From assembly GCA_026388155.1 (NCBI GenBank), contig JAPLKI010000013.1, positions 124,001 to 188,000 on the forward strand: a stretch of DNA of 64,000 nucleotides, given 5' to 3'. The position numbers and the translations under genes are program-made. Each line of letters opens with the position of its first letter. Within the stretch, counting starts at the first letter, position 1. The DNA is from Elusimicrobiota bacterium (GTDB lineage: Bacteria > Elusimicrobiota > Elusimicrobia > Elusimicrobiales > UBA9959). Below the pieces are notes generated by a model. The model did no database searches, was not told the DNA's origin, and worked only from the letters and a program-made list of their open reading frames with translations. Shown one piece after another: positions 18,655-21,074 of this stretch.

Positions 18655-18729
18655 GGGTGGTTAGCTCAGCGGTAGAGCACTGTCCTCACACGACAGGGGT
18701 CACAGGTTCAAATCCTGTACCACCCACCA
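18655..18729 (+). tRNA. tRNA-Val (anticodon CAC)
   Basis: The cloverleaf is complete. The acceptor stem GGGTGGT pairs with ACCACCC; the D arm is GCTC...GAGC; the anticodon stem CTGTC/GACAG encloses loop CTCACAC, giving CAC; the T arm is ACAGG-TTCAAAT-CCTGT. The CCA end is encoded at 18727-18729. The anticodon reads GTG codons. The 384 bases before it hold only the lipoprotein's upstream region. Confidence 0.96.
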
Positions 18730-18892
18730 GTTTTTAAGGTGGTAAGCGAATCAACTGCTTGATTCGCGGCAGGATTTGAAAGGCGGAGCGTTGATGAGCC
18801 AGCAGGCGAATCCGCGAGCCGGGGTCGCGGGTCCGGTTGAGCGACGGCGAGACCGGAACCTGTGACCAAATCCTGTACCACCCACCAGTTTT
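18709..18892 (+). repeat. Direct duplication of tRNA-Val 3' end with inverted fragments between
   Basis: The last 21 bases of the tRNA plus the next five (18709-18734) recur perfectly at 18867-18892, 158 bases on. Between the copies lie inverse pieces of the same tRNA: CAGGATTTGAA (18770-18780) and AACCTGTGACC. There is also a perfect 9-bp hairpin (18746-18767) with arms GCGAATCAA. The layout resembles an attachment-site scar or a tiny palindromic insertion. No integrase is nearby. Confidence 0.8.
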
Positions 18893-18980: not shown

Positions 18981-19001
18981 AAACATAGCCGGTATTTTAG
19001 T

Positions 19002-19050
19002 GTAGGCGATGGAGTTCGCCTGAACCGCCTGATCGGCTGATGACTCCTGC
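19002..19050 (+). promoter_or_regulatory. Fluoride (crcB-type) riboswitch aptamer
   Basis: Hairpin AGGCG/CGCCT (19004-19021) has loop ATGGAGTT. It is followed by GAACC and a second short hairpin GCC/GGC (19027-19037), then TGATGACTCCTGC. The loop bases GGAGT (19011-19015) are exactly complementary to ACTCC (19043-19047), giving the diagnostic pseudoknot. The conserved GGCGATGG, AAC.GCC and GGCTGATG words of the class are all present in order. It precedes a proton antiporter, a known type of target for this class. Confidence 0.88.
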
Positions 19051-19077
19051 GATTTATATCGCGGGAGTTTTTGTTTT
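19043..19077 (+). terminator. Riboswitch expression platform (intrinsic terminator)
   Basis: ACTCCTGCGAT pairs with ATCGCGGGAGT around a TTAT loop, followed by TTTTTGTTTT. Its left arm reuses the ACTCC that forms the aptamer pseudoknot, so the two folds exclude each other. Fluoride binding should prevent termination and turn the downstream gene on. Confidence 0.88.
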
Positions 19078-19151
19078 CAGTCAAAATCCGCGCGATTATA
19101 GAGAAATTATTAAAGGCGGAGGAAACAGAGGCCCTCAGTAAGGAGATTATT

Positions 19152-20345
19152 ATGGAACACATCTACGTCATAAGCGCGTTGTGGCTGGGGCTTGCCGTTC
19201 TGTCCGCGATAATATCCTACCACCTGAAATTATCCATAGCACTGGTAGAGATCTGCGTGGGCGTTCTTGCCGGGACGGCCGCTAATAAATATTTCGGACA
19301 TAATTCGCTGGGTTCCGATCAGGAATGGCTGAAATTTTTGGCCTCGTCCGGGGCTGTGTTTTTGACATTTCTTGCCGGTGCGGAGTTGGACCATAAGGTC
19401 ATGAAAGCTAAATTGAAAGAGGTCCTGGTGGTGGGCTTCGTCGGCTTTCTGGCGCCTTTCGCGGGCGCGTCGGTTTTCAGCTATTATCTGCTTCACTGGG
19501 GCCTGCAGGCAAGCCTGCTTGCGGGGGTTGCCTTGTCCACAACTTCAATGGCCGTGGTGTATGCCGTGATGATAGAAACGGGCCTTAACTCCACGGAATT
19601 CGGCAAGGGAATACTGGGCGCCTGCTTTGTGAACGACCTGGGCACCGTTATAGCCCTTGGCCTGATCTTCTCACCGTTTACTTATAAGACGATTGTTTTC
19701 ATCGGAGCCACGGCTCTGATACTTTCCGTCTTTCCTTATATAACCAACCACCTGACTGATGTTTACGGCAACAGGACGGCGGCCATACGGGTTAAATGGG
19801 TCTCGTTCATTTTATTCGCCATGGGCGCTTTAAGCGTGTGGGCCGACAGCGAAGCGGTTTTGCCCGCCTACATGGCCGGCATGGTGCTGGCGGAATTCGC
19901 GTCGGACAACCAGCTTTGGATCAAAAGGCTCAGAAGCCTGACCGTGGGTTTTTTAACGCCGTTCTATTTTATAAGGGCGGGTTCGTTCGTCTCAATACCG
20001 GCGCTTGTTTCCGCGCCGATGGTCTTTGTGATCCTGTTCGCAAGCAAGGTCTCCACCAAAATATTCGGTTTATACCCGGTGATCTCCATTTTCAGGAAAG
20101 ACAGGTCCGAAAAATGGTACTACACACTGCTTATGTCGACCGGCCTGACCTTCGGCAGCATCTCGGCCTTGTACGGCCTGACGCACGGCATAATAGACGA
20201 AAGGCAATATTCATTTTTGATAATAACCGTGATAGCGTCGGCTGTCATTCCGACCGCGGTGGCCAATTTTAAATTTTTACCCGCGCATTTACTGGCCAAC
20301 ATTAAACAGCACGCCCAGAAAGCCGAAACAGCCCGGGACGAATAG
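19152..20345 (+). CDS. CPA2-family cation:proton antiporter, fluoride-responsive
   Basis: This is a 397-residue membrane protein with about 12 hydrophobic segments. The start at 19152 follows AAGGAG with good spacing; longer in-frame starts would run back into the riboswitch. Motifs fit KefB/NhaA-like CPA2 exchangers: EICVGVLAGT, GVALSTTSMAVVYAV, the transport aspartate in CFVNDLGTVIAL, and FLTPFYFIRAGSFV. There is no C-terminal nucleotide-binding domain. Being under a fluoride riboswitch, it probably expels fluoride or restores ion and pH balance under fluoride stress. A DedA gene follows 66 bases later and may be co-transcribed. The exact ion is not determined by sequence. Confidence 0.88.
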   Translation: MEHIYVISALWLGLAVLSAIISYHLKLSIALVEICVGVLAGTAANKYFGHNSLGSDQEWLKFLASSGAVFLTFLAGAELDHKVMKAKLKEVLVVGFVGFLAPFAGASVFSYYLLHWGLQASLLAGVALSTTSMAVVYAVMIETGLNSTEFGKGILGACFVNDLGTVIALGLIFSPFTYKTIVFIGATALILSVFPYITNHLTDVYGNRTAAIRVKWVSFILFAMGALSVWADSEAVLPAYMAGMVLAEFASDNQLWIKRLRSLTVGFLTPFYFIRAGSFVSIPALVSAPMVFVILFASKVSTKIFGLYPVISIFRKDRSEKWYYTLLMSTGLTFGSISALYGLTHGIIDERQYSFLIITVIASAVIPTAVANFKFLPAHLLANIKQHAQKAETARDE

Positions 20346-20411: not shown

Positions 20412-21074
20412 ATGGAAATCATTCATGGTCTTTTGGCTTACATACTGAAATTTATAGATGTTCTGCTGCATCTGGATAAATACCTGGGGCAGGTAATACA
20501 AAGTTTCGGCGCGTGGACCTATCTGATACTTTTTACCATCATTTTCTGCGAGACCGGCTTTGTGGTAACGCCTTTTCTGCCGGGGGATTCTTTGCTGTTC
20601 GCCATAGGCGCGTTCTCGGCGCTTGGTTATCTGGACCTTTCAAAGGTCTGGCCGCTGCTGATATTTGCGGCCATTGCGGGGGACAATTCAAATTACGCTT
20701 TCGGCAAATTTGTGGGGCCGAAGGTCTTTAACTACGAGAACTCAAGGATCTTCAGAAAAGAGTATCTCGCCCGGACGCACAATTTTTACGAAAAATACGG
20801 CGGCAAGACCATAATACTCGCCAAATACGTGCCCATAGTGCGCACCTTCGCGCCTTTTGTGGCGGGCGTGGGGGCCATGACCTATCCGCGGTTTTTGATG
20901 TTCAATATTATCGGCGGGGCCACCTGGGTAACGCTCTTAATGCTGGCCGGCTACTTTTTCGGGAATATGCCTGTGGTTAAAAACAATTTTTCAGCGGTTA
21001 TTTTTGCCATCATCATCCTGTCGGTGATGCCCGGTGTTATAGAATACATCAGGCATAAACGAGCCAGCCGGTAA
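20412..21074 (+). CDS. DedA-family membrane protein
   Basis: This 220-residue protein has the SNARE-associated/DedA (VTT) domain. A hydrophobic re-entrant segment contains ETGFVVTPFLPGDSLLF, followed by GDNSNYAFGKFVG and KYVPIVRTFAPFVAGVGAM with the conserved Arg, then a C-terminal helix pair. DedA proteins act as proton-dependent flippases of lipid carriers and support envelope homeostasis. No strong promoter separates it from the antiporter, so it may share the fluoride-controlled transcript. That would be an unusual partner for a fluoride switch. Confidence 0.92.
   Translation: MEIIHGLLAYILKFIDVLLHLDKYLGQVIQSFGAWTYLILFTIIFCETGFVVTPFLPGDSLLFAIGAFSALGYLDLSKVWPLLIFAAIAGDNSNYAFGKFVGPKVFNYENSRIFRKEYLARTHNFYEKYGGKTIILAKYVPIVRTFAPFVAGVGAMTYPRFLMFNIIGGATWVTLLMLAGYFFGNMPVVKNNFSAVIFAIIILSVMPGVIEYIRHKRASR

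Follow-up and report, generated by a model that had tools for sequence, protein, structure and literature searches.

Introduction

Fluoride export in bacteria is said, in the excerpted parts of a review, to be accounted for by Fluc (CrcB) and CLC-F, and the Na+/H+ antiporters linked to fluoride riboswitches are ascribed there to pH control (PMC11139923). According to the same excerpts, the two exporters are nearly exclusive of each other, with about 3% of strains carrying both, and CLC-F proteins are marked by the motifs GREGT/V, GEVTP, and GNNLI/GMGLI (PMC11139923). CrcB and CLC-F are also the only exporters named in the excerpts of four other papers (PMC9495176, PMC3755343, PMC13104614, PMC8913905). 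The arrangement of a riboswitch followed by an antiporter is already known, since Na+/H+ antiporters have been published as targets of fluoride riboswitches (excerpts of PMC11139923, citing Baker 2012).

The locus described here, located in a 64,000-nucleotide stretch of Elusimicrobiota DNA (the window), shows the same association as the published riboswitch-controlled Na+/H+ antiporters (Baker 2012, via the excerpts of PMC11139923). For those antiporters, we did not find the subfamily boundary, the altered core motif, or the near-exclusion with Fluc and CLC-F reported below described in the open-licence literature, nor did we find there an account of a fluoride exporter with a CPA fold; the excerpts of PMC7266159 and PMC9646797 contain nothing on this subfamily. 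With the CLC-F F−/H+ antiporters and the Fluc/CrcB channels, the window transporter shares riboswitch control, a near-exclusive distribution among genomes, and a presumed task, whereas both families are unrelated to it and neither occurs in its genome.

Results

The 3.36-Mb genome of the window contains a single RF01734 (crcB motif) site, at 18996-19056 on the forward strand. The covariance model was matched over its full length (1-64 of 64) with 61.1 bits (E 1.7e-14), above the gathering score of 34, which places the RNA in the fluoride riboswitch class. Both hairpins and the GGAGT:ACTCC pseudoknot are visible in the sequence, with the 5′ strand at 19011-19015 (+) in the register of the Rfam alignment and the 3′ strand at 19043-19047 (+). 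An intrinsic terminator was found by the terminator scan at 19042-19077 (+), consisting of a 12-bp stem (19042-19069) with a 4-nt loop and the T-rich tail TTTGTTTT. Its 5′ arm, GACTCCTGCGAT, takes in the entire ACTCC strand, and therefore the aptamer pseudoknot and the terminator are mutually exclusive. The pseudoknot (GGAGU:ACUCC in the RNA) is thus accompanied by a competing expression platform. For the region 18996-19080 the folding energy was −35.8 kcal/mol (z −4.7), a value reached by none of 200 shuffles. The original prediction of a complete aptamer with a terminator competing for ACTCC, for which a covariance search had been proposed as the check, is borne out by these results, the score being well clear of a poor one; its coordinates were correct except that the start given, 19002, lies 6 nt inside the Rfam boundary. 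In its consensus elements, its ON layout, and the competition of the terminator for the pseudoknot, the leader differs in nothing notable from class RF01734, and by analogy with established riboswitch knowledge it is almost certainly a fluoride-ON transcriptional switch acting by antitermination.

The riboswitch is followed by a probable ribosome-binding site, AAGGAG (19140-19145, +), and by a transporter gene of 397 codons for amino acids running from ATG at 19152 to a TAG stop ending at 20345 (+). Its product matched PF00999 (Na_H_Exchanger) at 4.5e-36 and 124.9 bits, above the curated cut-off of 26.2. The best NCBIfam model was TIGR00932 (CPA2; 6.1e-30), with 104.7 bits against a cut-off of 238.3; judged by sequence, the protein is related to, yet outside, the curated TIGR00932 subfamily. 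NapA and KefC are its nearest solved relatives by sequence. The AlphaFold2 model (pLDDT 91.6, pTM 0.90) superposed on NapA (5bz2) with a Z of 39.5 and 3.7 Å over 365 residues. Helix breaks at 128-133 and 328-333 of the model place it in the NapA fold with its crossed broken helices; that the two breaks cross as they do in NapA is presumed by us. These results agree with the earlier assignment of the riboswitch target to the CPA2-type exchangers.

Compared with NapA, the CPA2 Na+/H+ antiporter of Thermus thermophilus (4bwz, 5bz2), the window protein has the same fold at 22% identity. Its D162 and K303 are the equivalents of D157 and K305 in NapA, the latter by family alignment, one pairwise alignment having instead paired K305 with P309. 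It differs in having N161 for D156, in R275, and in the replacement of the APRGEV segment by STGLTFG. The codons for N161-D162, aligned with NapA D156-D157, are located at 19632-19637 (+), and those for S329-G335 (STGLTFG), which fall where the model has its helix break between 318-328 and 333-344, at 20136-20156 (+).

The protein belongs to a sharply bounded subfamily, as indicated by the gap in the search with profile A1, in which full-length members scored at least 485 bits, member fragments were also found, and the next matches reached 70.7 bits or less. A1 was built from 36 riboswitch-linked antiporters out of 45 cluster members, with fragments and one duplicate excluded. Profile A2 comprised 64 of the 80 cross-phylum rows and the window protein. 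In a tree, 125 members stood on one side of a branch and 10 other CPA2s of Elusimicrobiota on the other (SH-aLRT 100); a second tree separated 164 members from 7 others. Both were quick trees without bootstrap; proteins shorter than 300 aa and L188 were excluded from both, L183, L184, and L187 also from the second, and L178 and L179 were trimmed to 420 aa.

In nearly all of the 125 members, residues 329-335 are STGLTFG, the outgroups having xxRGExx at these positions. K215, T72, and Y137 are invariant, and K303 is present throughout the 125 members and shared by 10 of the 11 outgroups. An N or a T, never a D, occupies position 161. Position 162 is D in 94 members, the window protein included, and N in 31, which accordingly have no aspartate at the site of NapA D156-D157. 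We take the aspartate at the D157 position to be the one needed for cation/H+ antiport. Riboswitch-linked rows of A1 make up 23 of the 31 N162 members, and two further N162 members were found in a second phylum (L259, L260) with no riboswitch at threshold. Residues 162 and 275 were associated: D162 went with a basic residue at 275 in 126 cases and N162 with a non-basic one in 33, and there were 5 exceptions. This covariation was considered as support for a charge-balanced anion site and dropped, because the two positions changed only 2 and 1 times on the tree and are not independent evidence. Beyond what had originally been predicted, the alignments thus point to a whole subfamily that is dedicated to fluoride and has altered core motifs, the antiport aspartate being absent from some of its members.

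RF01734 was detected in 74 of 340 Elusimicrobiota genomes, at 88 sites. The nearest recognised gene was this antiporter in 43 cases, CrcB in 22, enolase in 8, a formate-hydrogenlyase-type subunit in 2, and another gene in 13. Among the best 80 of 584 relatives, compared across phyla, a same-strand riboswitch lay no more than 300 nt away in 60 and farther upstream in 3, and 17 had none at the gathering score. These rates describe this subfamily only, since the relatives were recruited with conserved peptides (MSTGLTFG and S[ET]TS[LMV]AVVY), the loci were those nearest to the window, and A1 came from riboswitch-linked rows. The source records of the best 80 belong to Omnitrophota, Nitrospirota, Deltaproteobacteria, Planctomycetota, Actinomycetota, Bacteroidota, and others. 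The second phylum was centred on the genome of L124 (Syntrophus sp.), where a profile search of 257 genomes yielded 40 family stretches; the riboswitch lay within 300 nt in 28 and farther away in 3, and 9 had none at threshold.

Several features of these loci were observed in passing. An aptamer-like core is visible in L110, one of the 17 relatives without a scoring riboswitch, and L142, a member from a Methanomassiliicoccales archaeon record, has no riboswitch at threshold. In a pseudoknot variant (L047, L055, L056, L059, L062-L082, and other Elusimicrobiota loci), GATGT stands opposite ACCTC in place of GGAGT:ACTCC, with the second pair compensated and a U.C (or A.C) mismatch in the middle. 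The 5′ side was GATGT at 25 sites and GAAGT at 2, nearly all preceding a subfamily antiporter, as counted by eye from parse output that left 3 of the 88 sites unparsed. Three genomes (G142, G144, and G154; loci L033, L035, L036, and L041) carry several separate fluoride riboswitches with large regulons, whose targets are enolase with a dynamin-like GTPase, an antiporter-Usp-CrcB-DUF190/CBS cluster, and MFS or EamA transporters.

The genome of the window (G000, 96.9% complete) gave no match to CrcB/Fluc (PF02537), none to CLC proteins of any kind (PF00654), and no PF00999 gene other than the window transporter, and the idea of a CrcB or CLC hidden elsewhere in it was rejected on these searches. 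The claim that this organism counters fluoride with this transporter, a putative antiporter, is therefore well supported. Within Elusimicrobiota, CrcB was found in 3 of 42 genomes with a riboswitch before an antiporter, whereas 24 of the remaining 32 genomes with a riboswitch had it (Fisher p 2e-9, uncorrected for kinship); both groups are the same sort of genome, mostly incomplete MAGs, whose incompleteness lowers all presence counts. Within one genus (g13), G156 and G158 have a riboswitch before CrcB and no antiporter, and G157 and G159 have the reverse. PF00654 matches occurred in 8 of the 42 genomes, and the CLCs of 6 of these 8 were inspected and carried no CLC-F motif, the weak matches in G144 and G230 being left out.

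The cross-phylum search for CrcB and CLC covered 50 of the 60 loci with a near riboswitch, corresponding to 49 genomes. CrcB was present in 3 and a CLC in 21, and a motif scan found none of GREGT/V, GEVTP, and GNNLI/GMGLI in the CLCs of those 21. The same scan detected GREGT and GEVTP in two positive controls with a riboswitch before a CLC (L046, L050), and the idea that the CLCs of the partner genomes are CLC-F was rejected. For four CLC frames (L198, L199, L202, L208) the patterns matched no selectivity motif, and the statement on them is confined to the absence of CLC-F motifs. Taken together, no known exporter was found in 46 of the 49 cross-phylum genomes with the riboswitch-antiporter pair, and in Elusimicrobiota the same holds for at least 38 of the 42. 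The exclusion of CrcB is weaker in the second phylum, where CrcB was found in 7 of 40 family genomes versus 99 of 217 others. All three Elusimicrobiota with both the family and CrcB carry them in one cluster, riboswitch-antiporter-Usp-CrcB-DUF190/CBS, and family and CrcB share a riboswitch cluster in 5 of the 7 such genomes of the second phylum (G468, G506, G567, G602, G640). In these clusters the antiporter may help CrcB instead of replacing it, and the arrangement is equally compatible with either role.

Downstream of the transporter by 66 nt lies a DedA-family gene (VTT domain; PF09335, NF008102) at 20412-21074 (+). The terminator scan listed no terminator-like site between the two genes, and dedA is a possible member of the same operon. 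A DedA relative also follows riboswitch-crcB-crcB in three genomes of the same bacterial family (G120, G156, G158) and stands divergently beside the riboswitch and antiporter in G157 and G159. Recurrence of DedA at fluoride-riboswitch loci was observed in the window, L009, L012, L048, L061, and L088. Beside the riboswitch, a 26-nt exact repeat (18709-18734 and 18867-18892, 158 bp apart), made up of the 3′ end of tRNA-Val(cac) (18655-18729) and its flank, resembles a scar of integration or excision.

Discussion

Our results are consistent with a model in which fluoride, together with Mg2+, would stabilise the GGAGT:ACTCC pseudoknot and keep ACTCC from the terminator, so that RNA polymerase would read into the transporter gene and probably into dedA. 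The product, a CPA2-fold transporter of a fluoride-dedicated subfamily, would then take the place of Fluc (CrcB) and CLC-F, and would most likely lower cytoplasmic fluoride itself through proton-coupled extrusion of F−. We consider the chances of this explanation as a whole, from the ON switch to a substitute transporter that most likely extrudes F−, to be about even. One part of it stands more firmly: the window protein is probably the main fluoride-defence transporter of the cell. That its substrate is fluoride, and not Na+ or K+, is put forward more tentatively, at somewhat less than an even chance.

A decayed or chance RNA match in front of a gene free of fluoride regulation is hardly credible: a chance aptamer is excluded by the score of 61.1 bits against 34 and the intact terminator, and the pairing with the antiporter recurs across phyla. 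The main rival to fluoride transport is pH homeostasis, in which fluoride would induce an ordinary CPA2 Na+(K+)/H+ antiporter that carries no F− and that corrects cytoplasmic pH or reduces the pH gradient trapping F−. We regard this as a real possibility, although not the likelier outcome. Riboswitch-linked Na+/H+ antiporters have been interpreted in this way in print (excerpts of PMC11139923), and an operon with CrcB does occur. NapA, KefC, and NhaP are the closest proteins by fold and sequence, and the window protein retains both D162 and K303. The conservation of D162 in 94 of 125 members, as in cation/H+ antiporters, likewise counts against the export of F−. However, with a role in pH alone, 46 of 49 and at least 38 of 42 genomes with the pair would have no known exporter removing fluoride; moreover, one lineage with N in place of the NapA D157 aspartate retains the riboswitch, and the subfamily has lost the RGE motif seen in outgroup CPA2s.

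The family might also depend on a second exporter, such as the DedA neighbour, and act on fluoride only together with it or in its support. The position of dedA behind the window antiporter, behind riboswitch-crcB-crcB (G120, G156, G158), and divergently by the riboswitch and antiporter (G157, G159) speaks for such a partnership, which we nevertheless consider improbable, because, among all the loci collected, those of only 5 further genomes contained a DedA relative, and most family loci have none nearby.

Since the transporter seems to be a substitute for the known exporters, it may be an unrecognised fluoride pump. The riboswitch-linked STGLTFG subfamily of CPA2 as a third class of bacterial fluoride exporter is a live hypothesis, held here just short of even confidence. 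Such a class would have converted the CPA antiporter fold from cation to F− transport, probably with F−/H+ coupling; its marks would be STGLTFG, N or T in place of the first NapA aspartate, in some members N in place of the second, and the retained K303, and it would operate in the absence of Fluc and CLC-F across many phyla. If the subfamily is the sole fluoride transporter in dozens of genomes, then either fluoride would be survivable by proton/cation exchange alone, or there would be a third exporter class, a cation-antiporter fold with a changed ion. Both alternatives bear on fluoride tolerance in defluorinating microbes.
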